Positions 12,190 to 37,786 of a DNA stretch of 64,000 nucleotides are shown here, piece by piece. A program made the position numbers and the translations under genes. The notes under the pieces are model-generated. The model worked only from the letters and a program-made list of their open reading frames with translations. It was not told where the DNA came from and ran no database searches. Source of the stretch: Verrucomicrobiota bacterium (lineage in GTDB: Bacteria; Verrucomicrobiota; Verrucomicrobiia; Chthoniobacterales; Terrimicrobiaceae); assembly GCA_017305195.1 (NCBI GenBank), contig JAFKMU010000035.1:310001-374000 (forward strand). The letters are read 5' to 3'. Within the stretch, counting starts at the first letter, position 1; every line of letters starts with the position of its first letter.

Positions 12190-12202
12190 ATTGACAGTCA
12201 AA
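12190..12202 (-). promoter_or_regulatory. Putative LacI-type operator (locus 1), GH50-like promoter
   Basis: Minus-strand reading TTTGACTGTCAAT, 11 of 13 bases matching the perfect palindrome at 14065. It lies about 50 bp upstream of the GH50-like start in the divergent region shared with the PEP-CTERM gene. Confidence 0.65.
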
Positions 12203-12232: not shown

Positions 12233-12245
12233 CGTGACTGTCAAA
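12233..12245 (+). promoter_or_regulatory. Putative LacI-type operator (locus 1), PEP-CTERM promoter
   Basis: Reads CGTGACTGTCAAA, sharing the core TGACTGTCAA with the palindrome at 14065. It sits 35 bp before the PEP-CTERM start and 43 bp from the matching site on the GH50-like side, so one regulator could occupy both sites of this divergent promoter. Confidence 0.6.
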
Positions 12246-14064: not shown

Positions 14065-14077
14065 GTTGACTGTCAAC
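14065..14077 (+). promoter_or_regulatory. Perfect palindromic operator GTTGACTGTCAAC (locus 1)
   Basis: 13-bp palindrome around a central T, located just after the terminator and about 84 bp before the small-domain gene at 14161. It is the best copy of the sites seen at 8640, 12190 and 12233 and is taken as the consensus of the locus 1 LacI-type regulator. Confidence 0.7.
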
Positions 14078-18097: not shown

Positions 18098-18114
18098 CAA
18101 TCACGCTCCGGCGA

Positions 18115-21151: not shown

Positions 21152-22894
21152 CTAGGAAGTGCGTTTATGGCGCCTCGTGCGCAGTACCAGGAAAAGGCCG
21201 GCTCCAATCAACAGTGCGATTGTCGAGGGTTCAGGTATCACAACCAGGTTTAGCCCGCTTGCCTGAAAGTACGCTGATTTTCCACCGCCGAGGTCGTAGG
21301 CATTGGAGCTGCCGACATTCGAGACATTGGTCAGGTTGACCGTGGCGGAGCCGTTGATGAGTGTATAGGTGCCCGAGGCTGTCGCGGAGGAAAGCCCGAC
21401 CAGATCTGCCACACTGAATCCGCCGAAGGTCACGGAAGCGCCGTTCACCGTCAGCGTATTTGCCAAGCTGAAGACAAATTTCGAGCCGGACAGCAACGCG
21501 AGACTACCACCTATCGTGCCGTCGCCACCGATGGATGCTCCTGAGTTTACCGTGACAGCGCCTGTTGCTGCGGAACTGTCTCCATCGATGAGCAGCGTGC
21601 CGGCCGACACTGTTGTCGTGCCATTATAGGTATTCGTTCCGGTCAAAACCCATTTCCCAGTTCCCGCCTTGACCAGGTTCAACGTGGTGGCCGATCCATT
21701 GGTGATGGCGCCGATGGAGTTCGCAGCCGTGCTGCTGCCCTGAAGCGTGAAATTCTTGACTCCGCTGTTCGCTCCCGAAATTCCGGTGCTTACAATCAGT
21801 GCCCCGCTACCATCGGCTTGTAGTGCGGAAGTGGAGGAACTGATCTGAAACGTCTTGGATGTGGTTTCGCCGGAGCCGTTGTAAATCAGGCTGCCGCTGT
21901 CGGTTGATAGACTCCCCAGTTTGATGGGACCGCTTCCCAGGTTGTTATTTATGGAAGCCACCTTGATGGCTCCTCCGCGAACCACGGTCCCTCCGCTTGA
22001 GGTATTGGTTCCAGTCAATGTGAGCGTTGTCGTTCCTGTTTTTGTCACGCCTGACGAGGCTCCGACTCCCGTGATGTTGTTTGCAAACGTATAGTCTGAA
22101 GTCTGCGCGAAGGTCAGCACCGTGCTATTGTCGTTGAGATTCACAGCGCCCGTGCCTAGTGAGCCTGCGGCACCACCCAGCGTGAGAGAGCCGCGCACAT
22201 CCGTCGTACCAGAGTAGGTGTTGGCTCCGGTGACGATTTTCGTTCCTCCGCCCCAGATCCAGAGATTAGCCGTTCCGCTGATTACTCCGTTCAGCGTCAA
22301 TGAACCGCGGGAAACCATGATCTGTTGATTGCCGGAGACCGCGAGATTCGCGTTCATCGTCACGTAAGGCAGATTCGAGCTGCTTACCGAGCCGACATCG
22401 ATCAAGAAATTGCCCACCGTCCCGGCGCCAGCCGACGATCCATAGCTCGTACTGGTGCCGCTCAGCGTGATCGTCTGTCCGCCTACCGTCGAGCCAATGG
22501 TGACGATGTTTGCGCTGTTGGTGTTCGCATAATTGAAGAATTGCGTATTTGCCGTCTGGTTCCCATTGAGGCTGACGGTGAATGGCGAGGTCACAGCGGA
22601 TCCGCCTGCCACGAAGGCGAGATTATCCGTGGCTGAGGTGCTGGTTTGAAACGCTCCGCTGCCTCCGCCTGTGGAATCAGTGTTCCAGAAATTGCTTGTT
22701 CCCCAGGTTCCGCTCGGGACATCGCCTGCTCCTGCAGTTGTACCATTCGTATCCCAATAAAGGTTTGTCGCCGATGCGGAGCCCATCCCCACTGCCAGCG
22801 CGACCAGCATGCTGAGTGCTGGTTTCGTCTGCGCAAGGGGAGCGTGGCTCCGTCCTGAGTATTGCTTTCTCGTGGTGGGAAGGGTGTTTTTCAT
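21152..22894 (-). CDS. PEP-CTERM surface protein with autotransporter-type beta repeats (locus 2)
   Basis: About 580 residues. The ATG at 22894 is preferred over the in-frame TTG at 22930. A signal segment ends near SASATNLYWDTNG, as in the paralogue at 12280. The body consists of Gly/Ser/Thr-rich repeats such as TYSGTTDVRGSLTLGG and TYNGTTTVSAGTLLIDG. The C-terminus has a PEP motif (VIPEPS), a hydrophobic stretch and a basic tail (RTRRHKR). It is the first gene downstream of the operator at 22972 and is likely an exosortase substrate displayed on or released from the cell surface. Confidence 0.85.
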   Translation of the reverse strand: MKNTLPTTRKQYSGRSHAPLAQTKPALSMLVALAVGMGSASATNLYWDTNGTTAGAGDVPSGTWGTSNFWNTDSTGGGSGAFQTSTSATDNLAFVAGGSAVTSPFTVSLNGNQTANTQFFNYANTNSANIVTIGSTVGGQTITLSGTSTSYGSSAGAGTVGNFLIDVGSVSSSNLPYVTMNANLAVSGNQQIMVSRGSLTLNGVISGTANLWIWGGGTKIVTGANTYSGTTDVRGSLTLGGAAGSLGTGAVNLNDNSTVLTFAQTSDYTFANNITGVGASSGVTKTGTTTLTLTGTNTSSGGTVVRGGAIKVASINNNLGSGPIKLGSLSTDSGSLIYNGSGETTSKTFQISSSTSALQADGSGALIVSTGISGANSGVKNFTLQGSSTAANSIGAITNGSATTLNLVKAGTGKWVLTGTNTYNGTTTVSAGTLLIDGDSSAATGAVTVNSGASIGGDGTIGGSLALLSGSKFVFSLANTLTVNGASVTFGGFSVADLVGLSSATASGTYTLINGSATVNLTNVSNVGSSNAYDLGGGKSAYFQASGLNLVVIPEPSTIALLIGAGLFLVLRTRRHKRTS

Positions 22895-22971
22895 CGGATG
22901 CGAGGGAGGTTTGGGTTGCTGAGTTACCAACTATGCCCCTGCTCGCGATGCGACAAGTTGCGTGGCGATTA

Positions 22972-22980
22972 CCAGTTAAC
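22972..22980 (+). promoter_or_regulatory. Putative locus 2 LacI-type operator CCAGTTAAC, PEP-CTERM promoter
   Basis: Exact CCAGTTAAC, continuing as CTAGTTAACTGG-like symmetry on the other strand. It lies 78 bp upstream of the PEP-CTERM ATG and overlaps the stop codon of the gene at 22980. Confidence 0.65.
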
Positions 22981-23633
22981 TAGGGATTCAAGGTCGTCGG
23001 CTGGATCCGGATCTGAAAGGAGCCGGCGGCGGGAGGAGTTTTGAAGTATACCTTGCTCTTGTAGGAGAAACCATTCATTCCCCCGGTACGATAATCCACC
23101 AATCCCTGCCAGTCTGCGGGCATTTCGAGCGAGACGGCATCTCCGGTGGGTCCGGCAAAGACAAACACGCCTTTGGCTCCATCGACCAGATTGGGCGTGC
23201 CGGATATGTCGGGAAAACTCTTCGGAGTCTGAGTTCCGAAGGCGTAGTGCCCGCCCAAAATGAACTCTGTGCGGATAAACATGGAAAAGAATAGACCGGC
23301 GGCATCGGTCGGGAGATTCCCATATGTGCAGGTGACTTCTCCGGGTGCGGTGATTTCGTACCGGAACGTGGCTCCGGATTTGAACGAGACCGATACTTCT
23401 GTTTCGGTGCTGTTGGTGATCTCGGGTTTCTCCCGTTCGGAGGCTGGTTTTCCCTGGATGATCAACTGAGGCAGTTCTAGCGTGATCGAGCCGAGTGCAG
23501 TTTCCATGTGCAAGCCGACCTTTGTCGGGCCCGCCTTGGGATTATCATTGAACGTGGAGAGGGCGATATCATCGGCCGCCAGATGGGGCATGGCCGCTGC
23601 GCACAACAGGATGGAAGCGAGGAGGGGTTTCAT
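22980..23633 (-). CDS. Stand-alone protein of the unrecognised domain family (locus 2)
   Basis: About 217 residues from ATG 23633, which begins a signal peptide (MKPLLASILLCAAAMPHLAA). The mature part is a divergent copy of the domain at 14161 and of the N-terminal domain at 18115: a REKPEI segment early, YGNLPTDAAGLFFSMF matching FSGVPANAIGFTF, HYAFGTQTPKSFP matching KFSIGSGALQAFP, and a closing SFQIRIQPT. It starts ten bases after the stop of cassette gene D, so it appears to be the fifth gene of the second Verru_Chthon operon. The function is unknown; the link to pseudopilins suggests a partner or cargo. Confidence 0.75.
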   Translation of the reverse strand: MKPLLASILLCAAAMPHLAADDIALSTFNDNPKAGPTKVGLHMETALGSITLELPQLIIQGKPASEREKPEITNSTETEVSVSFKSGATFRYEITAPGEVTCTYGNLPTDAAGLFFSMFIRTEFILGGHYAFGTQTPKSFPDISGTPNLVDGAKGVFVFAGPTGDAVSLEMPADWQGLVDYRTGGMNGFSYKSKVYFKTPPAAGSFQIRIQPTTLNP

Positions 23634-23643
23634 AAGCTGGAAA

Positions 23644-24270
23644 TCACGGACGAAATATTTGCACGCGGCCAGTAAGTGGATCGACTTGCAGAGTGGCAAA
23701 GTTGGCTCCTTGGGCGAGGGAGGGATCTCCCTCCATCACTAAAGTCAGAAAGCTGTTGCTTCTGGAAAATGGATCGTTTTCCGAGGCAGGAATCGCCGAT
23801 CCGTCGGGTTTGAAACGCAGAGCTACAAAGGGAGGGGTTCCATACTCCCCGATACGAGTCGGCGAGATTTGTCGGGTCATGGTCAATATGCCGGAGTGGG
23901 TGGGGTCGGGAGAAAAGATGACAGGGCTGGAGAGATACCGGGGACGCGTGAGAGGATTCGCCGATGCGCCATCGATCATGTAGGCCTGCACTGCCCGCCA
24001 AACCTTGGGTGAGGCAGATGGTGATTCATTAAGTTCCGGTAATTGAAAGAATCTCACCTCCACAGGAAGGTTGCGTGAGATGGCTGTTTGTCGGGCGAGC
24101 CCGAGGAGATCGCTGACCGCCACGCTTTCCGATCCCAGTTTAGCGGCCCGGAGAGTGCTGATCATTCCCGGCAAGGTGAGTGCGGCCAGTAATGCCAGGA
24201 TGGCCATCACCGCCAGCAACTCGACAAGGCTGAAGGCGCATGCGCGTCGATCCCGGAGAGATGCATTCAT
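23644..24270 (-). CDS. Verru_Chthon cassette protein D (second cassette)
   Basis: 208 residues, the same length as its paralogue at 1827. Prepilin cleavage is predicted at Ala12/Phe13 with Glu17 at +5, followed by a hydrophobic helix. The start overlaps the stop of cassette gene A by four bases, as in the first cassette. Verru_Chthon D family (TIGR02596), GspH/G-like. Shared segment: LPVEVRF in the middle and a closing LQVDPLTGRVQIFRP against SLTGRTRTFQP. Confidence 0.88.
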   Translation of the reverse strand: MNASLRDRRACAFSLVELLAVMAILALLAALTLPGMISTLRAAKLGSESVAVSDLLGLARQTAISRNLPVEVRFFQLPELNESPSASPKVWRAVQAYMIDGASANPLTRPRYLSSPVIFSPDPTHSGILTMTRQISPTRIGEYGTPPFVALRFKPDGSAIPASENDPFSRSNSFLTLVMEGDPSLAQGANFATLQVDPLTGRVQIFRP

Positions 24271-27200
24271 GGGGCGAACTCCTTGGCATTGATTACCCGC
24301 ATCTTGTAGAGTGTTCCAATCGGCGTTTGTTCCCCGGGCTGGGCATAATCCGGGATGCGCTGGTCATTGGGATCGATGTAGCGCTCGATAATTTCGGCTC
24401 CCCGATCCTCGGCGACGATACGGTCTACGCCCTCCCGCCACACAGTGGGGTCTCCTCCCTTGGCCTTTTTCAGGCTTTGGGCGCGGTAGTGAATCGTGAA
24501 CGTGTTCGATTTTGTGGTGAGCCGTGGATAAATATCGGCATAGGGTTTCTCACGGCTGTTGTCTCCGGTGAGTCGTCGAGTGTCCCAGTAGGTGGACATG
24601 CTGGAGTACGAAGCCGCGTCGGATGGTACCAGATGAATGCCGCAAATCTCGGCTGCCGATCGAAAGATATCCGGATCGTTTGAGAGTCCGTAAGCGCTGG
24701 GGTTAAACCTTCGAGCAAACCCTTCCAGGGTTTTGTCGGCATCAACGTCCTTACGGAAATAGACGTTCGACGGCGCCTGACTTGGGGCTCCGGAGGTTTT
24801 GTAGGTATCGGCCTTTGCATCTGGAATGGAAAGCAGCTTCTCGGACTTCAGGACCGCCCGGATGGCGGTATCCCTTGTCAGGTAGGTGAAGGGAACCATC
24901 TGGTAATTCATATTTACCCGGCCAGCAGTCGACAAAGGCTCGCTGATGGCGTAGGGCTCGACCACCGGCATGTGAAAGAGATCAAGAAAGAGGGAGTCCG
25001 GCGGCTGCCCAGGACTCGATGCCCCTGTGACGTCACGATCCTTGTTTCCCGCATGGAGTCCGGTGGGATCTGGCCGAAAGAGGAGCGTTTGCCACGGTCG
25101 ATTCGCCAGAACTCCCGTCGGCAGCGAACCAAACATGACCGGGGAGGGAATGAGGCGATTGGGTGAAAAGTAGGTCGGGCCGGGATCCACTCCGGATTGG
25201 AAGTCTATCCCGAAATACGGTTGATAGGAGCCCTTGCCGATGTCGCCCTCATCCGCCTTGTTGATGTAGGCTCCATCCTGCTGGTTGGCGATCCCATTGT
25301 CCCAGTCGCCCACGAGACCGGGTGCCTGAAAGACTCCAGTGTGAGATGGGACGACCGTATCCCGTATTGAGCTCCAGCCATATCCGATATAAGGGGATTC
25401 GCCATTGGCGTTGGGATCGGCGCTATTGATAGTGTACTGATCTCTGTAGCTATTATAAGCAGGGTTGCTGACATTGGCCAGTTTGCCTCCGGTTCCTCCG
25501 TAAAACGGGTAGTTGTTTCCCGCCCGCAGCATGTGGGCGAAGTGCTGGCTCGTGGTGCCGAAATACTCATGCGCAGCGAAAAGATTGTCCGAAGGTTTGA
25601 CCCCCTCGCGCGCGGCAATGAGGCGGATGTCGCCGGGGGTCGCGACGATACTGCGGACCACATCCGTTTTTGAAAGAAAGGGATACGAGCGGTTTCCCCC
25701 GTCGATGCGTCCGCCGCCGAGGAATCTGCGGTAGTTTACGACGGATTTGGTGCTGTCGTTGGAGTTCTTGACCTTGTCGGGGGCCAGTGATGGCACGGGG
25801 AAGGGAGTGCTGCCGGAGGATGGAAAGGTGATCGTGACGGTCTGGATCAGATCCCCGATTGTTTTGCCGCTGGAATCAAGCGCGTAGATATCCACCTTCA
25901 CATCCCCGCCGGTGAAGTTGAAGGTTCCGTTTGTCGTCATGTCGCTGACCTGGCCAGTGTATCCGGTGATCGCGCTGATAAATGGGTAAGAGGAATTTGT
26001 CAGCTGGCGGAACCCCACGATGCCGCCGAAATAGGTATCGCCAGCCACGCTGAGATCGTTGACCCTCCCGGTGAAAGCGCTTGCGGGGAAGCCCATGGAA
26101 ACCGGATTGCCCGACCCGCTGTCCCACCTGAATCCGTCGAGTCCGCTGATTTTAACGGTGAACCACGGTCGGGCTTGCACCAGTCCCAGCGAGGGATCGA
26201 AAAGCTGGACAAAGAAACCGGCCTGTACGCGGATCTTCCCGGGTTCGACGCGGGGGATCACGTTTCCCTTTGCATCCGTCGTGTCGGTGGGATTTGTCGC
26301 GTTGTCAGCCGTGCCGATAAAGACCAGCGATACGCTCTGCACGGTGGGAAAACGTCCGAACCCTCTCGTCTGGGTCGCGGAATCCACGATGGGAATGACC
26401 TGTCCGACTCCGCCATTGTAGGCATCCAATTTCTGTGTGTATTTGCCTGCATCTGTCAGGGTGCTGTCCCGGAGATTCGTGCAGCGGATATAGTCGAACA
26501 TCTCGGTCAGGATCTGGTTGCGGTCGTTGCCATACTTTGCTGCGAATGATCCGCCGAAGCCTGGAATGTCCTGCGATGTCATGCTTCTCAGATACTCAAG
26601 CAGCATGCGATTTCGTCCCAGCCCGTCGACCGAGGGTGTCGCAGGCAGGTCGGTGGTGGCATCGTTCGGGTCCTGCCGGGTGAAATAATAACGATACGGG
26701 ACGCCGAGGTCGTTTCGCATGGTGGAGCAAAAGGCGATCAGCCTGTCAAAGGCCGTACGATGCGTGGCATCATCCGAGGCGCTCAGCGGCCACATGCTGA
26801 TGCGCGGCTGATTGAAGAGGTTCACATCCGGCGCACGACTGCTGGCGGTGAGGAAGAATTTGTTTTGCTCCAGAGTGTCCTGATTAATGACAGCGGCATT
26901 ATTTTGTTCGCGTTCACCGGATGACAGGATTGGCTTGAAGACGATCTCGTCGATGCTTGCGTAAAGGCGGTCGGGGTCCGGGTTGAGAGCCCCCGTGGCT
27001 TTTTGCGTGCCGCCTTCCGACCCGCCGCCTGTGATGCGCGGGGTGATAGAGTAGATCTGATTCGCGGTCAGGTTCTTGAAGACCGTGCTGAGCGATGTCA
27101 TTGCGGGATGACCGGGGTAGCGCTGGTATTCATGCTGGGCGGGCTGATACACGGCCAGGTTGAAGTCATCTGTGCTGTACGCACGAGGCGTATCCGTGAA

Positions 27201-27950
27201 GACGCCTTCGGACGAGGTGTTTATGTTTAGCTTGCAGCTTTCATCGTCTGCCCAGAAGGCAATGCGTCCCGTGATGGGATTTGCATCGGTCGCTCCAGCC
27301 ACCACGGCCTTGATTCCTCCTGCGTCGGACTGAGGGGCGACGACCGTGCCATCGGCCAGCACATAGAGCCAACGCACTGGCATGGGGGCGGGATTGCTTC
27401 CGCTTCCTCCCGCGATTGGGGCATCCGGGCTGATGTCAAAGCCCTCGACGTTGCCTTTGGCTCCTGGATCTAGGATAGGATAGATCGTCTTTGTCCCGGA
27501 AGTCATCGGCTGATTCAGGTCGGTGAAAATGGCGGTTTGTCTGGCCCAGTCGGATGGCACCTTTTCCGTGTCCGAGTATGGGTCAAATGCGCCCGTGCCT
27601 GTCATCGCGCTGGAGGTAAAAAGTTTGTACCAGCCCGCGGGCTTGCCTGCCGCATCGTAGGTGCGAATCATTCCCGGTTGCGAGGCCCAGGCCAGAGGCG
27701 CGCCGGTGTTGTCCACGCCTCTAGTTCCCGCATTGATCTGGCTGATTGCGAGATTGACGGCTGATTGTGCGAGGAGCCTAGACGATGCACCCTCAGCGTA
27801 GGATTTGGAAGACTGCAGCTCCGTATGCACGGTGGAGAAAAATGCGAGCGCTAGAGCGGCGAGGAAGATGAGGCTTGCCAGGACGATTACGAGCGCCATG
27901 CCGCGCTGTGGATCGGACCGCTTTAGCTTGAACGATATATCTGCGTTCAT
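24267..27950 (-). CDS. Verru_Chthon cassette protein A (second cassette, giant GspK-like)
   Basis: About 1,227 residues. The ATG at 27950 is preferred to 27962: it overlaps the stop of gene C as TGATG and has GGAG just upstream. Prepilin-like Gly17 precedes MALVIVLASLIFL, with no Glu at +5. A very long extracytoplasmic region follows, similar in blocks to the protein at 2450 (RIAFWADDESCKLNINTSSE, MTSLSTVF, RPWQTLLFRPDP). Verru_Chthon A family (TIGR02600). Inferred to cap a pseudopilus as GspK does. Confidence 0.88.
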   Translation of the reverse strand: MNADISFKLKRSDPQRGMALVIVLASLIFLAALALAFFSTVHTELQSSKSYAEGASSRLLAQSAVNLAISQINAGTRGVDNTGAPLAWASQPGMIRTYDAAGKPAGWYKLFTSSAMTGTGAFDPYSDTEKVPSDWARQTAIFTDLNQPMTSGTKTIYPILDPGAKGNVEGFDISPDAPIAGGSGSNPAPMPVRWLYVLADGTVVAPQSDAGGIKAVVAGATDANPITGRIAFWADDESCKLNINTSSEGVFTDTPRAYSTDDFNLAVYQPAQHEYQRYPGHPAMTSLSTVFKNLTANQIYSITPRITGGGSEGGTQKATGALNPDPDRLYASIDEIVFKPILSSGEREQNNAAVINQDTLEQNKFFLTASSRAPDVNLFNQPRISMWPLSASDDATHRTAFDRLIAFCSTMRNDLGVPYRYYFTRQDPNDATTDLPATPSVDGLGRNRMLLEYLRSMTSQDIPGFGGSFAAKYGNDRNQILTEMFDYIRCTNLRDSTLTDAGKYTQKLDAYNGGVGQVIPIVDSATQTRGFGRFPTVQSVSLVFIGTADNATNPTDTTDAKGNVIPRVEPGKIRVQAGFFVQLFDPSLGLVQARPWFTVKISGLDGFRWDSGSGNPVSMGFPASAFTGRVNDLSVAGDTYFGGIVGFRQLTNSSYPFISAITGYTGQVSDMTTNGTFNFTGGDVKVDIYALDSSGKTIGDLIQTVTITFPSSGSTPFPVPSLAPDKVKNSNDSTKSVVNYRRFLGGGRIDGGNRSYPFLSKTDVVRSIVATPGDIRLIAAREGVKPSDNLFAAHEYFGTTSQHFAHMLRAGNNYPFYGGTGGKLANVSNPAYNSYRDQYTINSADPNANGESPYIGYGWSSIRDTVVPSHTGVFQAPGLVGDWDNGIANQQDGAYINKADEGDIGKGSYQPYFGIDFQSGVDPGPTYFSPNRLIPSPVMFGSLPTGVLANRPWQTLLFRPDPTGLHAGNKDRDVTGASSPGQPPDSLFLDLFHMPVVEPYAISEPLSTAGRVNMNYQMVPFTYLTRDTAIRAVLKSEKLLSIPDAKADTYKTSGAPSQAPSNVYFRKDVDADKTLEGFARRFNPSAYGLSNDPDIFRSAAEICGIHLVPSDAASYSSMSTYWDTRRLTGDNSREKPYADIYPRLTTKSNTFTIHYRAQSLKKAKGGDPTVWREGVDRIVAEDRGAEIIERYIDPNDQRIPDYAQPGEQTPIGTLYKMRVINAKEFAP

Positions 27951-28966
27951 CAGGAACTCCATTTCGCCCCGGGCAGGGGAACCTTTGTGCGGAAGACACG
28001 ATAGCCGATATTCTTTGCGGAAAGACGGCGTTCCAACTCAGCAATGTCGTCCTCCAGCTTTGCTTCGGACGAGGAATCAAGGAAGAGTCCGTCCAGGCCG
28101 ACATCCGGTGCGGTGGCGGGATTGCCGAGGCGCTGTGCGGAAGGCTCGTCGATCACGACCATGGCGACTTCCACCAGGGGCGGAAGCTGATGGGCCGTCG
28201 CTGGCTGAGGGCTGGATGATGCCCCCTTCGTCGAGTCGTATTCGTAATCGGAAACCAATGGCGCAGAGTTTCCATCGAGGCTTGAGGCTTGAGGCAAAAT
28301 GACAAGCGCGATGACGTTTTCGGCGATCTGGTGGACCGGTGGATCGCTCGATGCAAGGGGGGCGGTGAACCATCCTGTCGATCCTGCATCGGCATAGACC
28401 GAGAGATTCTGCGTCGGCTGAAAAAACTGCATGAGACGAAATCGATGGCGCGTGGCGGGCTTGTTCGATCCCAAGGCATCCAGGAACGCCGGGCGGAGAG
28501 GATCAGCGCTGTATTGGATGTAAAATCCCGTCGAGTTCAATGCGGAGTCCAGATGCTCAAAGCTCGCCTTGTTGGAATAGCCCAGCGGAGCCTGAAAGAA
28601 GACAGCTTGTGTCACCTGTCCCGGGACAAGAGCTTTGCCCGTGATAAACTGAAGATCTGAATTCCTACGATAGCGGGTCGGATTCGTCAGGTCGTCGTAA
28701 TCATAATACGTATTAAGCGTAGCCTGGCCCAGTGTGCGGGTGAGGATGTCAAACGCGGTCCTTGCTCCCTGGATCGCCTCGACCCGGGAGCTGGTGCTGC
28801 GCCAGGCATTGGCGGTCTGCTGGGTAATGCCAAAGATGACGACCATAATGATAGCCATCACCGCCGTTGCGGCTAAAAGCTCGATGATGGTGAAGGCTTG
28901 CCCTTCGTTCGCTTTTCGCCCGGGCAGGCCTTGCTTGTGATCGGTTCCTGGGTACGGACATCTCAC
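27950..28966 (-). CDS. Verru_Chthon cassette protein C (second cassette, GspJ-like)
   Basis: 338 residues, GTG start overlapping the stop of gene B by four bases (GTGA). Prepilin site Ala24/Phe25, Glu29 at +5, followed by GITQQTANAW, which matches SITQQTSAAW in the first cassette. Verru_Chthon C family (TIGR02599). The late part contains LPPLVEVAMVVIDEPSAQR, also matched in the paralogue at 6127. Confidence 0.88.
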   Translation of the reverse strand: MRCPYPGTDHKQGLPGRKANEGQAFTIIELLAATAVMAIIMVVIFGITQQTANAWRSTSSRVEAIQGARTAFDILTRTLGQATLNTYYDYDDLTNPTRYRRNSDLQFITGKALVPGQVTQAVFFQAPLGYSNKASFEHLDSALNSTGFYIQYSADPLRPAFLDALGSNKPATRHRFRLMQFFQPTQNLSVYADAGSTGWFTAPLASSDPPVHQIAENVIALVILPQASSLDGNSAPLVSDYEYDSTKGASSSPQPATAHQLPPLVEVAMVVIDEPSAQRLGNPATAPDVGLDGLFLDSSSEAKLEDDIAELERRLSAKNIGYRVFRTKVPLPGAKWSS

Positions 28967-29409
28967 AACGAATCAACAGGCTTCGGCAGGATTACGGAGC
29001 AGGTGTTCGTCAGCAAAGGCTGGTTGCGGCTGGAGATGCGGATCACCACGCGCTGGGCGGCTGCCGTAGTGGACAAATCCGTAGGCGCAGCCACGGATGC
29101 CGTGAAGACGCGACGCTGGTCCCCGGGGCTATCCACCGGGATTCCGCGCTCATCGAAATAATAATTGGTAGCCGAGAGATTGGAGGCGTCTGTACGCAAT
29201 ACCTCGGAGGTGATTACGCTCAGAATCTCCGACCGCGTAGTGGTCGACATTGCATCCCGGAAGGTGGACAAACCTACCGGGATAAGCCCCATAACGCCCA
29301 GCATCGCAAACGAAACGATGCCGATGGCTATCACTGCCTCGACCAGGCTGAACGCTTGGAGCGCGAAACGGTGGGTGCTGCCTTTTCGTCGTTGCTGGCA
29401 AAATTGCAT
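28963..29409 (-). CDS. Verru_Chthon cassette protein B (second cassette, GspI-like)
   Basis: 148 residues. Prepilin site Ala19/Phe20 with Glu24 at +5 and a helix ending GLIPVGL. Verru_Chthon B family (TIGR02598). First gene of a five-gene coupled run B-C-A-D plus the small-domain gene at 22980. Its promoter region (29410-29552) holds the operator at 29533. Confidence 0.88.
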   Translation of the reverse strand: MQFCQQRRKGSTHRFALQAFSLVEAVIAIGIVSFAMLGVMGLIPVGLSTFRDAMSTTTRSEILSVITSEVLRTDASNLSATNYYFDERGIPVDSPGDQRRVFTASVAAPTDLSTTAAAQRVVIRISSRNQPLLTNTCSVILPKPVDSL

Positions 29410-29532
29410 GGGGGGATGGCAGGTAGGTTATCGAGGAGATCTCTTGTCGACAACATTGTCTTCAATGTCGGTCTGTTAGACGGTTTTACCTATACATTCA
29501 TTCGCGCCATTCAGCTAACGACGAAATGCTTT

Positions 29533-29545
29533 CCAGTTAACCTGG
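29533..29545 (+). promoter_or_regulatory. Putative locus 2 operator before the second cassette
   Basis: CCAGTTAACCTGG, the most symmetric of the five CCAGTTAAC sites, with CCAG/CTGG outer arms. It lies 124 bp upstream of cassette gene B and just outside the 3' end of the GH3 gene. Confidence 0.68.
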
Positions 29546-29552
29546 GCGGTGT

Positions 29553-31835
29553 TCATTGGACCTCGAGTATTGTCGAAAGGACGTTCATAGAGCTTCCTCC
29601 CACCATTACCTCAAACTCGCCCGGTTCGACGATGAACTCGAGATCCTCGTTGTGATACCCGAGTTCCGTCTTGCCGACGTCAAAGGTCACCGTCACCGAC
29701 TCACCTGCTTTGACAAGGACTTTTTGAAAGCCCTTCAGTTCCTTCGACGGTCGTGTCACCCGGCTCACGCGATCCCGGATGTACATCTGGATAATTTCCA
29801 AGGCGTCAACGAAGCCCGTGTTTCTCAGGCAGGCGGAAACCGACGTTGCCTCGTTAATGGCGATGCGAGGTCGCGAAAGCTTGATCCCAGAGTATTCGAA
29901 GGTGGTGTAGCTCAGCCCGTGGCCAAAGGGATAGAGGGGTGTCGATGGACTCTGATGGTATTTCTTCCGGGCGCTCGGTTTATGGTTGTAGTAGACCGGT
30001 AGTTCCTCAGCAAGGCGGGGGAAGGTCACCGTTGTCTTGGCGGATGGGCACACCTCCCCGAAGAGAATCTCGGCCAGAGCCGTGCCTCCCTCCTGCCCGG
30101 GATACCAGGCGCAGAGAAGGGCGTCGCTTTGGCGGGCGATTTCTTCCACCGTATGCGGACGGCCTTGGACGAGGACTGTGACGATGGGTTTGCCCAACGC
30201 GCGCAATCTCTCCACCAGGGTCGCCTGGGCGCCACCGAGGTCGATATTTCCCCGGTCAATGCCTTCTCCGCAATCAATATCGTCGATCCGGGTGTCGACG
30301 GCGATCGCCTGTCCGCCGTCGGTGTATTGCGTATCAAATGGACGTGCGCTGGACCCGCCGACGCAGGCGACGATCACATCGGCCTGACTGGCGGCCTCGA
30401 TGGCCGCAGCGATTCCCTCTTCAGAGCAGTCGGTGATACCGCAGCCACGGACATAGTCCACGAATATTCCGCGAGCGGCGGCGGCAGTCTGTATTCCCTG
30501 GAGGATGGTCACCACATTGCTGGCGTCCTGGTAGCAGACGTAGTCACCGATCTGGTTGTAGAGATTGTGAGCGTTGGGTCCGATGACGGCGATTTTTCGT
30601 ATTCCGCCAGCCTTCAGGGGAAGGATTCCATCGTTCTTCAATAGCACGATGCCTTCCCTCGCGGCCTGCAGATTAAGCTCCCTGTGTTCGAGGCAGTGTA
30701 CGCGAGCACTTTTTTCCGGATCGACATAGGGATTCTCAAACAGCCCCAGCAAAAACTTGATGCGGAGAATACGTCGGACCGCCTTGTCGATCTGGTCGAC
30801 GGTGATCTGCCCGCAATCCAGTGCGTCGGGCAGAAAGTTGAAGGCGTCGTCGCGCAGGCTTTGGTCGATGCCGGCATTCACCGCCTGGGCGGCCGCCTCA
30901 GCCATATCCTGTGCGGTGAAATGATAGTTAAAGAGCTGGTCGATGCCGCACCCATCCGAAACGACGAATCCCGGGAAACCCCAGCCCGCCTTCAGGAGAT
31001 CAGTCAATAAATACCTGTTGCGATGGATGGGGATGCCATCCATCTCCGTGTAGGATGCCATCACAGACATCGCCCCGGCGGCAATAGCCTTCTTGAACTG
31101 CGGAAGGAACCGCTCATGAAGCTCCTGTCGGCCGCAATGAACCGGACCGTTGTGTTGACCGCCCTCGCTCGATCCAAAGGTGGCGAAGTGCTTGAGCGTT
31201 GCCATGGCGGCTGAATCAGCCGTGTAATCGCCGGAATGCATCCCGGAGACGATCTGCGCTCCCAGTTCCCCGGTAAGGTAGGCGTCTTCACCCAGCGTCT
31301 CCTCCACCCGGGACCATCTCGGGTCTGTTGCCAGATCAAGCACGGGGGAGTAGGACATATGCGTGCCTTCTGATCGAAGCTCCGTGCCGATCACTCTGCC
31401 CACGCGGTACATGAGATCCCGATTCCATGAGGATGAGAGGCCGATGGCCGCCGGGAATACCGTGGTGCCGAGACCTGCCACTCCATGAGGGCAGTTGGCC
31501 GCGAGGAGCGCGGGTATGCCGAGACGGGTATGCTCCACCAGATGGCGCTGGATGGCGTTGGCCAGTTCAGCCGCCTCACGCGGGCCGAGCCCGTCATCAC
31601 GCGACACCCCGCTCCACGGATCAGCGCGCTGTACCGCCGAGAGTGTGCCGATGCCGTTTTGCGCCTTGGAGAAAAACTCGTCCGAGAGCTGGATGCAGCG
31701 GTCTTTCCCTCGCACGTAGCACTTCCACCCTGCGAGGTTCTGGTTCATTTGAGCCAGCTTTTCCTCGATGGTCATCATCGACAAAAGTGCGCCGATTCGT
31801 TCCTCGAGAGGAGAGTGGGGGTCTCTATAGTTCAT
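29553..31835 (-). CDS. GH3 beta-glycosidase
   Basis: 760 residues, the full length of GH3 enzymes with a C-terminal fibronectin-III-like domain (about residues 640-755). The N-terminal barrel includes the nucleophile motif VVSDGCGID, and the second domain has GPNAH and GGTALAEILFGE. There is no signal peptide, so it should act in the cytoplasm on imported oligosaccharides, complementing the GH130 enzymes. Divergent from the polysaccharide deacetylase, with an operator in the shared promoter. Beta-glucosidase or beta-xylosidase specificity cannot be told from the sequence alone. Confidence 0.93.
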   Translation of the reverse strand: MNYRDPHSPLEERIGALLSMMTIEEKLAQMNQNLAGWKCYVRGKDRCIQLSDEFFSKAQNGIGTLSAVQRADPWSGVSRDDGLGPREAAELANAIQRHLVEHTRLGIPALLAANCPHGVAGLGTTVFPAAIGLSSSWNRDLMYRVGRVIGTELRSEGTHMSYSPVLDLATDPRWSRVEETLGEDAYLTGELGAQIVSGMHSGDYTADSAAMATLKHFATFGSSEGGQHNGPVHCGRQELHERFLPQFKKAIAAGAMSVMASYTEMDGIPIHRNRYLLTDLLKAGWGFPGFVVSDGCGIDQLFNYHFTAQDMAEAAAQAVNAGIDQSLRDDAFNFLPDALDCGQITVDQIDKAVRRILRIKFLLGLFENPYVDPEKSARVHCLEHRELNLQAAREGIVLLKNDGILPLKAGGIRKIAVIGPNAHNLYNQIGDYVCYQDASNVVTILQGIQTAAAARGIFVDYVRGCGITDCSEEGIAAAIEAASQADVIVACVGGSSARPFDTQYTDGGQAIAVDTRIDDIDCGEGIDRGNIDLGGAQATLVERLRALGKPIVTVLVQGRPHTVEEIARQSDALLCAWYPGQEGGTALAEILFGEVCPSAKTTVTFPRLAEELPVYYNHKPSARKKYHQSPSTPLYPFGHGLSYTTFEYSGIKLSRPRIAINEATSVSACLRNTGFVDALEIIQMYIRDRVSRVTRPSKELKGFQKVLVKAGESVTVTFDVGKTELGYHNEDLEFIVEPGEFEVMVGGSSMNVLSTILEVQ

Positions 31836-32001
31836 TCAGTGTGTCGTCAGTTTGGAAATATTCCCGGTGGCGGGACCGCAACGGGAACTGACTGCTCCGG
31901 CAGAGCGACGCGCATTCAGATCCAGCGTGATATCGGCCTCCCGCTCATGGATGCATCATTCTTGTTTTCGGGAACCAGGCCGGACAGACCAAATATGATT
32001 A

Positions 32002-32010
32002 CCAGTTAAC
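32002..32010 (+). promoter_or_regulatory. Putative locus 2 operator in the GH3/deacetylase divergent promoter
   Basis: Exact CCAGTTAAC, 54 bp before the deacetylase ATG and 167 bp before the GH3 start, so it could control both. Confidence 0.65.
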
Positions 32011-32063
32011 TTTTGTCGGTATTTGCTCCAGCCTGGTTTGTCTTCTTGCTAAGGTTTTACGGT

Positions 32064-32921
32064 ATGAAAGCACCGCGTCGCATCGAGATCCCATCCTTTC
32101 CCAAGAGCAAACGCCTGGCTGTGACAACCAGCTTCGACGACGGGCACACTCATGACCGACGAATCGTGGAAGCCTTCAACGAGTGGGGGCTGAGGGGAAC
32201 CTTTAATCTCAACTCCGGCCTTCTGAGACGGGAGGGAACGCACTCTCCCGACGGGGCGCGCAGCTATCTCGATGCGTCGGAGGTCGCAGACCTCTACCGG
32301 GGGCACGAGGTTGCCATCCACTCGGCGACACATCCTCACTTGCCAAGGCTCGATGCCTCGCAAATCGCCCTTGAGGTGCTGGAGGATCGAAAGGCTCTGG
32401 AGGATCTCGTCGGCTACCCTGTACGAGGGATGGCCTATCCCTATGGAACCTATGACCAGAGAACGATCGATCTGCTGCGCTCCCTGGGAATAGTCTATTG
32501 CCGCACGTGTGAAAACGCGGAGCCCTGCTTCCCTCCGAAAGACAATCTCACCTGGCCGACGACCGCGCACCAGTACGCCACTGAACCAAGCGTGCCGGAG
32601 AGATTTCAGCATCTATATGACAACTCTCGGCGGGGAGGGGTCTTTTTCATCTGGGGTCACGGTTTCGAGTTTCACGACCGCAATGACTGGGAGGCCCTTG
32701 AGCGCATCTATCGTCCGCTATCCGGAAAACCCGACGTTTGGTACTGCACAAATATCGAACTCTTTGACTATGAGGATGCGCGGAAACGTCTGGTTATCGC
32801 CGCCAATCGCCAAACAGCTTTCAACCCCAGCGGACTTGCCGTTACCATTCTGGTCGACGGAGTAGTGATGGAAATACCGCCGGGAGCGACTCGTTCACTA
32901 ATATCCTCCGAAAACACGTAG
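32064..32921 (+). CDS. Polysaccharide deacetylase family (NodB-like) protein
   Basis: About 285 residues from ATG 32064 (AAGG ten bases upstream); the in-frame TTG at 32013 would start beside the operator. Carbohydrate esterase 4-like features: SFDDGH (the first Asp-Asp metal/catalytic motif), HSATHPH (metal His pair) and YPYGTYD. A short beta-rich C-terminal tail of about 50 residues follows the barrel. No signal peptide, so it is probably cytoplasmic, which is unusual for chitin- or xylan-type deacetylases and fits removal of acetyl groups from imported oligosaccharides. Confidence 0.85.
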   Translation: MKAPRRIEIPSFPKSKRLAVTTSFDDGHTHDRRIVEAFNEWGLRGTFNLNSGLLRREGTHSPDGARSYLDASEVADLYRGHEVAIHSATHPHLPRLDASQIALEVLEDRKALEDLVGYPVRGMAYPYGTYDQRTIDLLRSLGIVYCRTCENAEPCFPPKDNLTWPTTAHQYATEPSVPERFQHLYDNSRRGGVFFIWGHGFEFHDRNDWEALERIYRPLSGKPDVWYCTNIELFDYEDARKRLVIAANRQTAFNPSGLAVTILVDGVVMEIPPGATRSLISSENT

Positions 32922-32981
32922 TCTGAGAGGTTCGCTGGATCGCAGGGTGCTCGCGAAGCGCGAGCCCTTTGCGGCTTCGCC

Positions 32982-34109
32982 TCAATTTGAGGGGAGCCCG
33001 AACAACTCCCGATACCTCTTCGCGGCTTCAGGCATCTTGGTGATGCCTTTGCCTTCCGGCCAGGGAAAGAGCATGTGGTCTCCATCGGGAGCATTCACAT
33101 CGAAATAGCAGTGAAAGTAGACGTTGTTTTCCGGGTTGGTAATGAACTCATGCATCTGCTCGATAAAGTACGGATTGTCCCGCCCTCCATGCTTCCCATA
33201 CACGAGACCCCACTCACAGATGGCCAGAGGTTTGTTGCCATGCTCCCTGGCAAACTTCACCCAAAAGGCCAGTCCGTCACGCCCCGGTAGGTCGGACAAG
33301 AGGTTTTCCTTCCAGCTCTTTTTCCTGCGTATCTGGATTTCCTCCGGTGTTGCATCCTCCGGCAGGGGGTAGATATCCGGTATCCAGGCCTGATCGTAAA
33401 CATCGAGCCCGACGAAATCGACATACTCGTTGCCGGGCCATGCAGCAAAAGCCTTGCTGCCTCGCAGTCCGATGGTCGGGTTCCAGCAAAACTGCAACTT
33501 CTCCGCCCCTGGCACGGCTCGCATCGTCTTGACGATCTCCCGCCAGTACCCGGCGAATGCCTCGGGATTCTTCCCCGCGCGCCAGGTGTACCAGCCGCCA
33601 TTGAACTCCCAACCCGGGCGCAAAATTGTATTGTCTAAGCCGTTCTTCACCAGATTCCTCGCCAGAGCCTCGAAGTGCGCGTTGTAAGCCCCGGCGGCTC
33701 CCTGCTCGAGCGAGACTGGTTCTCCCGCTCCGGAGCCAGTTTTGGGTCCGTCGCCTTTCCACGGCCCGACGAGCATCGGCACGCTGAGCACCAGGCGTCG
33801 ACCGGGAACTGCGTTGACCCATTGTCCCCAGGGTTTCAAGATCCAGTCTCCCCCTCGCATGAGGTCCCAGGAGTCGAAAGGCAGAAACTCCTCCGCCCAA
33901 ATGACCGAGCGATTAATCCATCTGCTGTAGGCGTCGAAGTACCCCTCGCTGAGTCGTTTCACGCTTCCTTCGACCACGGTATATGGCGGCGCGGTATTGT
34001 TGCCGAGAGGGAGCTTTTCCGGCGCTTCTGCCTGCAAAGCAGTGTCTGCGATGAGAGCTATGAGGCAGGCAAGGGCGATACTCTGAAGCCGGGGGGTGTA
34101 AATAGGCAT
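32982..34109 (-). CDS. GH26-like secreted glycoside hydrolase
   Basis: 375 residues with a cleavable signal peptide (IALACLIALIADTALQA) and a GH-A clan catalytic domain paralogous to the lipoprotein at 14832: RPGWEFNGGWYTW (acid/base region, Trp where GH26 usually has His), WPGNEYVDFVGLDVYD, ICEWGL (nucleophile region) and DNPYFIEQMHEFI. It lacks the lipobox and Pro-rich linker of the paralogue, so it would be periplasmic or released. Divergent from the LacI-type gene across the operator at 34168. Confidence 0.78.
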   Translation of the reverse strand: MPIYTPRLQSIALACLIALIADTALQAEAPEKLPLGNNTAPPYTVVEGSVKRLSEGYFDAYSRWINRSVIWAEEFLPFDSWDLMRGGDWILKPWGQWVNAVPGRRLVLSVPMLVGPWKGDGPKTGSGAGEPVSLEQGAAGAYNAHFEALARNLVKNGLDNTILRPGWEFNGGWYTWRAGKNPEAFAGYWREIVKTMRAVPGAEKLQFCWNPTIGLRGSKAFAAWPGNEYVDFVGLDVYDQAWIPDIYPLPEDATPEEIQIRRKKSWKENLLSDLPGRDGLAFWVKFAREHGNKPLAICEWGLVYGKHGGRDNPYFIEQMHEFITNPENNVYFHCYFDVNAPDGDHMLFPWPEGKGITKMPEAAKRYRELFGLPSN

Positions 34110-34167
34110 TGTTTTCCCTTGAACGACTAAGCCAGTTTGCCGTACTGGTCAAAAACCCCTCAGCTTT

Positions 34168-34176
34168 CCAGTTAAC
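34168..34176 (+). promoter_or_regulatory. Putative locus 2 operator at the regulator's own start
   Basis: Exact CCAGTTAAC ending 4 bp before the ATG of the LacI-type gene and 59 bp before the GH26-like start. This arrangement predicts autoregulation together with control of the GH26-like gene. Confidence 0.68.
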
Positions 34177-34179
34177 TTC

Positions 34180-35211
34180 ATGCCCTCCATTACGCTCCGG
34201 GAACTCGCGGCCCTGGCCGGATGTTCACACGCCACGGTCTCCCTTGCCCTCAGGAAGCATCCTCGCATCTCGGCGGAGACTCGTGAGCGGATCCTCAAGC
34301 TGGCCCGGGAGACTGGTTACAGCCGCGATCCCGTGGTCGCGTCGCTCATGACACAGTTGCGTACGACGAAGAGAAATCGCAGCTTTGAAAAGATCGCTCT
34401 GCTTTCCTACTGGGACACGCCGGATGCGTGGCGTACTTCTCCGCATGATACCACGGGTTTCCATGGCGCTTGCTCGCGTGCCGCGGAGCTTGGCTATGAA
34501 ATCGAGGAGTTTTGGGGCAAGGCCCCAGGTATTACTTCGCAGCGGCTCAGCAAGATCCTGCACACGCGCGGCATTCGCGGCCTGATTATTGGGCCTTTGC
34601 CGAGGCCTTGGGGACATGTTTCGTTGAACTGGACCCACTTTGCTGCTGTGGCGATAGGAAATACCGTGGTGCGCCCAGGCTTGCATCGAGTCATTCACTC
34701 CCAGTCCCAGGGGATGAGTCTCGCTCTGCGATCACTCAAGCACCAGGGATACGAACGTATCGGATTCACCAGCCTGATCGACCAGAGCCGCCGGGTCAAC
34801 CAGGGCTGGCTCGCCTCATATCTCCTCCATTCCTACGAGCAGCCAGCGAAGCTGCGCGTCCCGCCGCTGATCACCAAGTCGTGGAACCGGGAGAAATTTC
34901 GTCGGTGGCTGGAAAAACATAAGCCCGACGCGATCGTGAGCAATTACGACATCCCGCTTCATTTCCTTGCCGAGTTCGGTGTACGCGTCCCGGAGGATAT
35001 GGCATTCGCATCGCTTGATCGCATGCACGATACCGATCCCTACGCCGGTATCGATCAACTGCGAGGCAAGATGTATGGAGCGGCGGTGGACCTGTTGGTC
35101 TCACTTATCGAGAGCAACCAGTATGGACTGTCAGAGCATCCGAAGATCGTCCACTTTGAGGGGGTATGGCAGGCGGGTCCGACCGTGCAAAAGAAAAAAG
35201 CAGTCGTATGA
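34180..35211 (+). CDS. LacI family transcriptional regulator (locus 2)
   Basis: 343 residues: N-terminal LacI helix-turn-helix (TLRELAALAGCSHATVSLAL, residues about 5-24), hinge, and effector domain paralogous to the regulator at 8702 (HVSLNWTHFA, KHKPDAIVSNYD, PYAGIDQL). The residues equivalent to E. coli LacI Tyr17-Gln18 are His-Ala, against Arg-Thr in the locus 1 paralogue, which fits the different operator sequences in the two loci. Predicted to repress the units bearing CCAGTTAAC until a sugar signal binds. Confidence 0.92.
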   Translation: MPSITLRELAALAGCSHATVSLALRKHPRISAETRERILKLARETGYSRDPVVASLMTQLRTTKRNRSFEKIALLSYWDTPDAWRTSPHDTTGFHGACSRAAELGYEIEEFWGKAPGITSQRLSKILHTRGIRGLIIGPLPRPWGHVSLNWTHFAAVAIGNTVVRPGLHRVIHSQSQGMSLALRSLKHQGYERIGFTSLIDQSRRVNQGWLASYLLHSYEQPAKLRVPPLITKSWNREKFRRWLEKHKPDAIVSNYDIPLHFLAEFGVRVPEDMAFASLDRMHDTDPYAGIDQLRGKMYGAAVDLLVSLIESNQYGLSEHPKIVHFEGVWQAGPTVQKKKAVV

Positions 35212-35227
35212 GAATTTCTGCATTCAG

Positions 35228-35236
35228 GTTAACTGG
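35228..35236 (-). promoter_or_regulatory. Putative locus 2 operator before the GH28 operon
   Basis: CCAGTTAAC on the minus strand (GTTAACTGG on plus), 51 bp upstream of the GH28 start and just after the LacI-type stop codon. Confidence 0.65.
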
Positions 35237-35286
35237 ATAGCATCGGCGCGCTGGTTTCCAGCAAAGGGACGTTCAAAGGTGCGTTC

Positions 35287-36693
35287 ATGCGCACCTCTTT
35301 TGTGGAATCGCCGCCTGATCTCCGGGGCGGAGGCGAGTTGGTAGTCCGGCCGGGGACAACCGGGATTCATACCGAGATTATTCAGGCCGCAATCGACAAG
35401 TCTGCGGCGATGGGCGGCGGAAGGGTGGTGTTAGCCCCGGGCCACTATTGCGCTGGGACCATCATCATGCGAAGCAAGGTCGAGCTGCATCTGGATAAGG
35501 GAGCCATTCTTTCCGGAACTTCGGACGTAAGTGCCTACCTGCAGAAGACTGGTCAGCAGGGTGCCCGGATCGTGGGGGGCTCAGCGACAGCCCTGCTTTT
35601 CGCTGAGAACGCGGACAACATTGCCATTACCGGCGAGGGCGTGATCGATGGAAATGGCTCCGTCTTCTGGGAAAAGCTGGAAACACCTCATCCCTGGGTC
35701 GAAGAAGCCCGACGCTTCGGAAAATGGGTGCCCGCTTTTGACTACAAGGCTAAACCGCGTCCGCGTGCGCTGATCCTTTTTGCAAACTGCTCCAATGTGC
35801 GGCTGGAAGGATTTCGGGTTCAGAACTCGCCGGCATGGACAATTCATCTGCTGGCCTGCTCCAGCGTGGTCGTGCGAAGCATCGTCCTGAGGGGAATCCT
35901 GCACGGGTGCAACACGGACGGACTGGATCTCGATGGTTGCAGCGACGTACTGGTGGAGGACTGTGATATCTTTACGGGCGACGATGCGATCTGCCTTAAG
36001 AACACAAACACCTGGGGGTTGAAGCGCCGCTCGCACGACATCATCGTGCGTCGCTGCCGACTGCGCTCCACCACGCATGGATTCACCGTCGGCACCGAGA
36101 CGCAGGATGATTTTGAGGACGTCTCGTTTACAGATTCGCAGATCGAGCAGGCAGGCGAGTACCACACTCTCACCGGCATCGGCATTAGCGTTCTCGACGG
36201 CGGGGCGATTCGACGCATGCATATCGCGAATGTTTCGGTCTCGGACGCCGTGGGTGCCATTCAAATCCGGCTCGGCAATGAGGGTAGGGGCCAGTCGGTC
36301 AAGGTGCCTGGTGAGATTCGGGACATCACCCTGGAAAACATCACCATACGGCGCGCTCACGGAAACTCTCTCATCGCCGGGCTCCTGCACCATCCGTTGC
36401 GGAACATCATCCTTCGCAATATCAGCCTGGAATTTGTGGACTTCGCAGATCCCACGAACATCTCGGCGGGATTTCCCGAGATGGAGTCCGAATTTCCGCC
36501 CAGCACGACGTGGCGCTTTCTTCCTGCCTTCGGATTCTACTGCCGCCATGTCGATGGTCTGGAGCTGACCAATGTCACCATCCTGCCCGGAGCGCAGGAC
36601 GACAGGCCCGCGCTCGCGCTGAAAAATGTCCGCTCCCTGCACTGTGAGAATTTCGATGCGGCGGAGTATATCCGTCTCCCGGGCGAGGAGTAA
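35287..36693 (+). CDS. GH28 polygalacturonase-like enzyme
   Basis: 468 residues of a right-handed beta-helix protein. GH28 hallmark blocks are present in order: NTDG (NTDGLDLDGC), GDD (FTGDDAICLK), a G-H-G-like TTHGF, and the R-x-K-like IQIRLGN. These hold the catalytic Asp residues and the substrate-binding basic residues of the family. AAAGGTG precedes the ATG. No signal peptide is seen, so cytoplasmic action on short pectic or rhamnogalacturonan-like oligosaccharides is likely. First gene of a same-strand run with GH130 and the symporter (gaps about 90-95 bp). Confidence 0.88.
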   Translation: MRTSFVESPPDLRGGGELVVRPGTTGIHTEIIQAAIDKSAAMGGGRVVLAPGHYCAGTIIMRSKVELHLDKGAILSGTSDVSAYLQKTGQQGARIVGGSATALLFAENADNIAITGEGVIDGNGSVFWEKLETPHPWVEEARRFGKWVPAFDYKAKPRPRALILFANCSNVRLEGFRVQNSPAWTIHLLACSSVVVRSIVLRGILHGCNTDGLDLDGCSDVLVEDCDIFTGDDAICLKNTNTWGLKRRSHDIIVRRCRLRSTTHGFTVGTETQDDFEDVSFTDSQIEQAGEYHTLTGIGISVLDGGAIRRMHIANVSVSDAVGAIQIRLGNEGRGQSVKVPGEIRDITLENITIRRAHGNSLIAGLLHHPLRNIILRNISLEFVDFADPTNISAGFPEMESEFPPSTTWRFLPAFGFYCRHVDGLELTNVTILPGAQDDRPALALKNVRSLHCENFDAAEYIRLPGEE

Positions 36694-37779: not shown

Positions 37780-37786
37780 GGACGGC

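Follow-up and report, generated by a model that had tools for sequence, protein, structure and literature searches.

A predicted LacI-family regulon joining carbohydrate genes and a Verru_Chthon pseudopilin cassette in a Verrucomicrobiota bacterium

Introduction

One study (PMC3463425) associates cre boxes lying upstream of the -35 element with activation by the LacI-family protein CcpA, in a helix-face-dependent manner. Here we describe an arrangement that may be comparable in a 64-kb stretch of contig JAFKMU010000035.1 of a Verrucomicrobiota bacterium (the whole of the DNA analyzed, hereafter the window), where five short sites are the candidate operators of a LacI-family protein encoded at 34180. 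Like CcpA of Bacillus subtilis (LacI/GalR; ackA, pta, ilvB), this regulator would act from a site upstream of the -35 element, here a predicted one. CcpA is, however, a global dual regulator that works with HPr-Ser-P and mostly represses, whereas the sites in the window are pathway-local and occupy one upstream position. Cra (FruR) of Escherichia coli and PckR of Alphaproteobacteria are also LacI-family dual regulators, and the positive or negative mode of PckR has been predicted from site position in a comparative survey (PMC4052901). Both proteins serve central carbon metabolism in either mode; the sites studied here are local and accompany genes for polysaccharide use and pseudopilins.

The same survey (Ravcheev et al. 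2014) states that local LacI regulators have mostly carbohydrate targets, that more than three-fourths of them are autoregulated and that 1251 of 1303 LacI motifs (96%) are even palindromes (PMC4052901). The motifs catalogued there are mostly even with a central CG, in contrast to the operator described here, which is odd and lies upstream of a predicted -35. A literature search of titles and starts of abstracts returned no study of a verrucomicrobial LacI operator, one candidate (PMC7744130) dealing with unrelated matters, and a further search gave no paper joining leaderless mRNAs, Verrucomicrobi and transcription start sites. The name of the Verru_Chthon cassette was likewise found in no paper of the literature searched, so there is no described regulation with which to compare it.

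Results

The original prediction proposed an autoregulated LacI regulon from a repeated nonamer, CCAGTTAAC. Exact copies lie at 22972, 29533, 32002 and 34168 on the plus strand and at 35228 on the minus strand, and the window holds no sixth, as had been claimed. The half copy then expected by chance is correct for equal base use (128000/4^9 = 0.49); 100 dinucleotide shuffles averaged 0.10 copies and never exceeded 1. A scan of the whole genome (G000, 5.11 Mb), which the original prediction had proposed, found eight nonamers, five of them in this locus, against ten matches for a reversed control pattern. The three outside copies (contigs C39, C54 and C71) lack the flanking pattern common to the five. 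When read toward the target genes, the nonamer belongs to a longer word, the 14-mer GTTAACTGGWWAKC, whose five exact copies in 5.11 Mb are all in this locus. Elsewhere in the genome there are 6 copies with one mismatch and 53 with two; the total at up to two mismatches (64) is little above the reversed control (51), so that the excess consists of the five exact copies. Separately, CCAGTTAAC stands directly before one shared gene outside the LacI regulon in G000 (L006, C39:57195) and in Spartobacteria bacterium LR76 (L091).

The unit is a 13- to 14-bp, partly palindromic site, placed at a fixed spacing to a predicted promoter, rather than the nonamer. The best symmetry centre of the window operators is position 7, with 62% complementarity (P = 0.007, uncorrected for 13 centres), which fits better than our first idea of symmetry about the central TG (position 7.5). 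The odd palindrome is clearer in the operator class of a paralogous regulator (TTGACNGTCAA, see below) than in the operators assigned to the 34180 protein. That protein and its putative targets are as follows.

34180..35211, plus strand: LacI-family regulator P0001, with His17-Ala18 in its helix-turn-helix, which would read operators 1 to 5
21152..22930, minus strand: target, autotransporter-repeat protein with PEP-CTERM signal (family scan)
28963..29409, minus strand: target, Verru_Chthon cassette protein B, TIGR02598 (69.5 bits, cut-off 51.4)
27950..28966, minus strand: target, Verru_Chthon cassette protein C, TIGR02599 (282.1 bits, cut-off 256.5)
24267..27962, minus strand: target, Verru_Chthon cassette protein A, TIGR02600 (1016.8 bits, cut-off 332.3)
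23644..24270, minus strand: target, Verru_Chthon cassette protein D, TIGR02596 (109.1 bits, cut-off 70)
29553..31835, minus strand: target, glycoside hydrolase (GH) family GH3 (family scan)
32064..32921, plus strand: possible target, polysaccharide deacetylase; ATG 32064 is in frame with the listed TTG 32013
32982..34109, minus strand: target, GH26 (family scan)
35287..36693, plus strand: target, GH28 (family scan)
36784..37779, plus strand: target in the GH28 run, GH130 (family scan)
37875..39653, plus strand: target in the GH28 run, sodium:solute symporter (family scan)

P0001 has the N-terminal LacI helix-turn-helix domain (PF00356, 44.7 bits, cut-off 27). Its effector-type, periplasmic-binding-protein-like domain scores below cut-off (PF13377, 24.0 bits against 26.5, residues 185-313), and its matches to NCBIfam LacI models are N-terminal only and all below cut-off. 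It is one of 43 LacI-family proteins encoded in the genome (5.1 Mb). Spacing and strand make it likely that the PEP-CTERM gene, which probably starts at ATG 22894, shares an operon with 18115-21111 (CBM9) and a GDSL esterase gene (17006-18100). The deacetylase probably starts at ATG 32064 rather than TTG 32013. Family names suggest mannan-type substrates for GH26 and GH130 and pectin-type substrates for GH28.

The operators and predicted promoters are listed below, with offsets counted from the operator start (+25 is the first base of the predicted -35).

22967..22980, minus strand: operator 1, GTTAACTGGTAATC, toward the PEP-CTERM/autotransporter-repeat gene; kept in LR76
22951..22956, minus strand: predicted -35 of operator 1, TTGTCG, +25 to +30
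22928..22933, minus strand: predicted -10 of operator 1, TAGTTG, +48 to +53
29528..29541, minus strand: operator 2, GTTAACTGGAAAGC, toward Verru_Chthon cassette genes B, C, A and D
29489..29517, minus strand: predicted promoter of operator 2, TAGCTG-17-TATAGG
31997..32010, minus strand: operator 3, GTTAACTGGTAATC, between GH3 (minus) and the deacetylase (plus); direction of action uncertain
31958..31986, minus strand: predicted promoter of operator 3 toward GH3, TGTCCG-17-AAGAAT, with T at +25
34163..34176, minus strand: operator 4, GTTAACTGGAAAGC, toward GH26 and also 3 bp before the LacI ATG (34180)
34124..34152, minus strand: predicted GH26 promoter of operator 4, TTGACC-17-TAGTCG
35228..35241, plus strand: operator 5, GTTAACTGGATAGC, toward GH28-GH130-symporter
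35252..35280, plus strand: predicted GH28 promoter of operator 5, TGGTTT-17-AAAGGT; ATG 35287 at +60

All five sites scored as intergenic, operator 1 overlapping only the last base of the listed open reading frame 22980-23699, in agreement with the earlier placement outside genes or at gene edges. The genes they had been said to precede held for the PEP-CTERM gene, the cassette, GH26, the LacI gene and the GH28 run. The assignment to GH3 held in part: the site at 29533 lies just downstream of GH3 and belongs to the cassette starting at 29409, and that at 32002 stands in the divergent gap upstream of both GH3 and the deacetylase. The segment from operator 3 to the GH3 start (31836-31996) forms a long conserved leader: judged by eye, its displayed part shares about 95% of its bases with LR76, unlike the other leaders.

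Conservation points to the same unit. LR76 has a LacI protein 94% identical to P0001 and keeps all five sites. Over five ungapped pairs, identity between G000 and LR76 is 0.99 in the operator, 0.80 in the 10 bases after it, 0.97 in bases 25-30, 0.84 in bases 31-47 and 0.93 in bases 48-53, falling to 0.58 after base 53 and 0.52 upstream. Among 13 further genomes the exact 14-mer occurs only in LR76 (five copies) and G249 (one copy); matches with up to one mismatch number 26 across all 13, against 33 for the reversed control. G249, from the same class and another order, encodes a LacI protein 62% identical to P0001 with the identical recognition helix SHATVSLALR, among neighbours that comprise GH26-deacetylase-GH3-symporter, GDSL, GH28 and cassette genes. 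Its sole genomic match at up to one mismatch, GTTAACTGGAAATC, stands before GH26 in the corresponding gene cluster, and weaker sites precede GDSL, GH28 and the gene divergent from LacI. The distant orthologs at L070 (49% identical) and L071 (46%) both come with GTTAACCGTAAACC before a GDSL gene. In G008, the other genome of the same genus, no LacI protein matches P0001 at E <= 1e-75; the exact 14-mer is absent as well, and two copies with one mismatch occur. In the divergent GH26/GDSL gap of G249 (L136:16766-16798) we also observed two operators, one toward each gene, both followed by TNG at +25.

The distance from operator to promoter was measured on an alignment of 14 sites, all oriented alike (window, 5; G249, 4; L070, 2; L071, 1; G062, 2). 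These sites, nine of them from other genomes, were chosen for operator similarity and for position before genes of LacI clusters; they include weaker matches (the G249 GDSL, GH28 and 571-aa sites, L070, L071 and the G062 942-aa site), similarly scoring matches such as L140, L143, L144, L146 and window 17584 lie outside the set, as do the loose fits L071:2728 and G062b:14525, and LR76 sites were kept apart because they are near-duplicates. The element at +25 was first noticed by eye in these sites and measured afterwards: 13 of the 14 have T at +25 (p 4e-8; 6e-6 when corrected for 129 columns), and 12 have G at +27 (p 6e-6; corrected, 8e-4). Position +48 is where a 17-bp spacer predicts a -10. 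With matrices for E. coli promoters, the -35 score was best at +25, among all positions tested, in both the TTAAC class of operators, to which those of P0001 belong, and the TTGAC class described below, and the -10 score was best at +48 in the TTAAC class (G062b:82 lay outside the site set used). A consensus promoter scan of 21000-40500 was uninformative, finding 8 matches against 8.8 expected and none on the five sites.

The combined pattern TTRACTGKMWA-N12-TNG was counted in two sets of genomes: the seven that have such LacI genes gave 22 matches (reversed control, 7; none in G062), and five without a P0001 match at E <= 1e-75 gave one (control, 5). The five matches in G000 are all in the two window loci. 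Start codons were placed with similar regularity: among the 27 sites (31 examined) having a first ATG opening a frame of at least 130 aa, 13 have it at +59 to +64, a window picked after the data were seen, with G064:13108 and the LR76 rows outside the count. None of 20000 uniform simulations placed 13 in any 6-base window. As only 5 to 10 bases are left between the -10 and such an ATG, leaderless or nearly leaderless mRNAs are predicted, and we infer that there are many leaderless mRNAs among the targets. Leaders would be longer for the PEP-CTERM gene (ATG at +87) and the cassette (+133); for GH3, no start codon falls in the range examined.

The second LacI locus of the window (locus 1) has the following regulator and sites.

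8777..9811, minus strand: paralogous LacI, 50% identical to P0001, recognition helix Arg17-Thr18
8641..8651, minus strand: site TTGACTGTCCA, TGG at +25, ATG at +64
12191..12201, minus strand: site TTGACTGTCAA, TTG at +25, ATG at +62
12234..12244, plus strand: site GTGACTGTCAA, TTG at +25
14066..14076, plus strand: site TTGACTGTCAA, TTG at +25

All four sites matching TTGACNGTCAA (up to one mismatch, centre A/T) have TNG at +25, as do their TTGAC-type counterparts in LR76 (4/4) and at the second locus of G249 (3/3). This paralog, which has Arg17, is accompanied by TTGACTGTCAA in place of the 14-mer; the motif thus changes with the protein. Across loci, Arg17 accompanies TTGAC operators and His, Gln or Ile at this position accompanies TTAAC operators. 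Loci L149 to L154 were scanned after this rule had been formed; Arg17 occurs in L149 and L150 only. A/T-centred matches numbered eight in these two, and seven of them had the TNG element at +25 (p 3e-8 against a background of about 0.06); TTAACNGTTAA did not occur. The check was not wholly blind, since L149:4011 had been seen before and had helped to suggest the TTGAC rule; without that site, printed earlier, the count is six of seven (p 4e-7). The miss (L150:6109) and one positive (L149:2901) were scored inside coding frames. The other four loci held a single TTGAC-type match, in a coding frame, and none of the TTAAC type. In a tree with many open forks, the locus-1 LacI joins the Gln/Ile17 proteins of G062 (98/96), apart from the other Arg17 proteins, which suggests that operator and residue 17 changed together more than once. 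This paired change is the best evidence that the LacI proteins read these sites.

The window carries two related Verru_Chthon cassettes, at 1827-7578 and 23644-29409, each near its own LacI paralog and its own operator type. G000 encodes Verru_Chthon protein A above cut-off at 13 loci. A LacI gene lies no more than 10 kb away at 10 of them, where chance would give about 18% (p 7e-6), and two of the three exceptions lie on contigs without a LacI match. A stricter palindrome search at 9 of the 11 loci outside the window returned 9 candidate pairs, the striking one being TCGAACNGTTCGA, beside the LacI gene C12:38232.

Discussion

An autoregulated LacI regulon with predicted binding is thus well supported, as originally proposed, with two changes: the nonamer is not its unit, and the upstream position of the operators argues against a simple repressor. 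That the regulon includes the 34180 gene is strongly supported by conservation, ortholog co-occurrence and the matching operator/helix change in the paralog, and we regard the assignment of the operators to the 34180 protein as very probably correct. The protein would bind, as a dimer, a 13- to 14-bp odd palindrome (generally GTTAAC-N-GTTAAC, here GTTAACTGGWWAKC) located 10 bp upstream of a weak -35 box at each target promoter and centred near -53 from the predicted start. Once bound, it would contact RNA polymerase and activate transcription, a sugar derived from polysaccharide serving as the switch. The putative regulon comprises glycoside hydrolases, an esterase, a symporter, the PEP-CTERM/autotransporter-repeat protein and the Verru_Chthon pseudopilin cassette. 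Site clustering, conservation, fixed geometry and the matching operator/helix change are the computed parts of this explanation, to which binding, activation, the effector and leaderless mRNAs are added as its inferred parts.

Geometry is what favors activation. At the predicted target promoters the operator lies 10 bp upstream of the -35, its centre near -53 if transcription starts near +60, which is the activator-type placement at fixed spacing; the classical repressor placement, overlapping or downstream of the core promoter, is not seen there. The constant distance across unrelated genes and differing operators indicates a set position of the bound protein with respect to RNA polymerase, and the location upstream of the -35 argues for an activator-type mechanism rather than a simple repressor. 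The LacI gene itself is the exception to upstream placement: its operator lies 3 bp before the ATG, which would fit self-repression and makes autoregulation plausible; the protein probably represses its own gene. On balance, activation is likely as the mode on the targets, and the complete explanation, with the 34180 protein as dimeric reader and activator of the carbohydrate genes and the cassette, has a somewhat better than even chance in our judgment.

Several observations weigh against this account. T at +48 occurs in 9 of the 14 sites (p 1e-3) and alone does not survive correction (0.13), and the -10 matrix in the TTGAC class peaks only at z = 2.0, at +47. G is missing at +27 of the GH3 site, and the element is absent from one G062 site. 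TNG is found at +25 in 12 of 16 A/T-centred TTGAC-type sites outside L149 and L150, the failures being in G064 (0/1, a site touching the LacI start), G062b (0/1, a non-Arg17 locus) and G306 (1/3); neither type of site is present at the G329 locus with Arg17. Around the 11 remaining cassettes of G000, a search for a repeated motif plus TNG with up to two mismatches gave a weak signal at offset 25 (10 against a mean of 5.5, sd 2.2), with 11 at offset 26 and, at up to three mismatches, 41 at offset 25 (mean 36.1, sd 6.2). The Shine-Dalgarno-like AAGG before the GH26, GH28 and G249 GDSL starts is awkward with a transcription start near +60. The window operators are degenerate in their right half, and the odd symmetry departs from that of most catalogued motifs. 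Some G249 sites are weak operator matches, and equally scoring matches elsewhere were left out.

The best-known LacI proteins are repressors, and the strongest alternative keeps the same protein and the same operators but has the protein repress from near -53, hindering RNA polymerase through contact or through looping between operators, until the sugar releases it. Several operators within 12 kb would permit looping. A single operator per promoter at constant spacing, with varied operators and genes, is nevertheless more typical of activators, and the core promoters are weak, none of the eight consensus matches coinciding with the five sites; we therefore consider this alternative possible and rather unlikely.

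Far less probable is that the 14-mer and TNG form the promoter of an alternative sigma factor of the extracytoplasmic function (ECF) type, with GTTAACYG as -35 and TNGNCG as -10, the LacI gene being incidental. The fixed orientation and the 17-bp gap from TTAACY to TNGNCG would suit such a promoter. Yet the operator varies with LacI residue 17 as TNG stays constant, all 14 bp are conserved and partly palindromic, a second conserved hexamer follows 17 bp further on, the exact 14-mer occurs nowhere else in the genome and the scanned proteins of the locus gave no sigma-factor family match. We give marginally less credence still to reading by another protein, such as the locus-1 LacI or any of the 41 others. 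With 43 LacI proteins in the genome, overlapping specificities are conceivable; but the motif or close variants accompany the 34180 ortholog in LR76, G249, L070 and L071, the locus-1 paralog has distinct sites of its own, and G008 has neither a P0001 match at E <= 1e-75 nor the exact 14-mer, with two one-mismatch copies. Chance repeats or a mobile repeat unit, for which only the shortness of the word speaks, are practically dismissed by the shuffles, the whole-genome counts and conservation across orders with divergent flanks.

If activation by the 34180 protein is correct, the regulon would provide a regulatory handle on the cassette: with 10 of 13 cassette A loci near a LacI gene, inducing the cassette might allow a test of what it does. 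It would also reveal a LacI subfamily that, as a rule, activates its local targets instead of repressing them, with leaderless transcription predicted at many of these promoters and a readable protein-to-DNA code linking residue 17 to operator position 4. More tentatively, this verrucomicrobial LacI clade may consist of dedicated local activators that share one rigid module (operator, 10 bp, -35, 17 bp, -10, about 7 bp and then the initiation codon of a leaderless mRNA) of unchanging geometry, have altered the operator through residue 17 and each pair a substrate-specific enzyme set with a cassette of their own. In that case the multi-copy cassette would be a substrate-induced surface machine for polysaccharide use.

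Two minor observations concern other LacI loci and contigs. The G000 protein at C12:37262-38401 (L209), with Lys17-Ser18 in its recognition helix, has a third operator type, TCGAACNGTTCGA, with TTG at +25 on both sides of the LacI gene. Additional TTGACTGTC sites, each followed by TNG at +25, lie elsewhere in G064 on separate contigs (C25:18135, C50:9172 and C53:14826; L155, L162 and L167).

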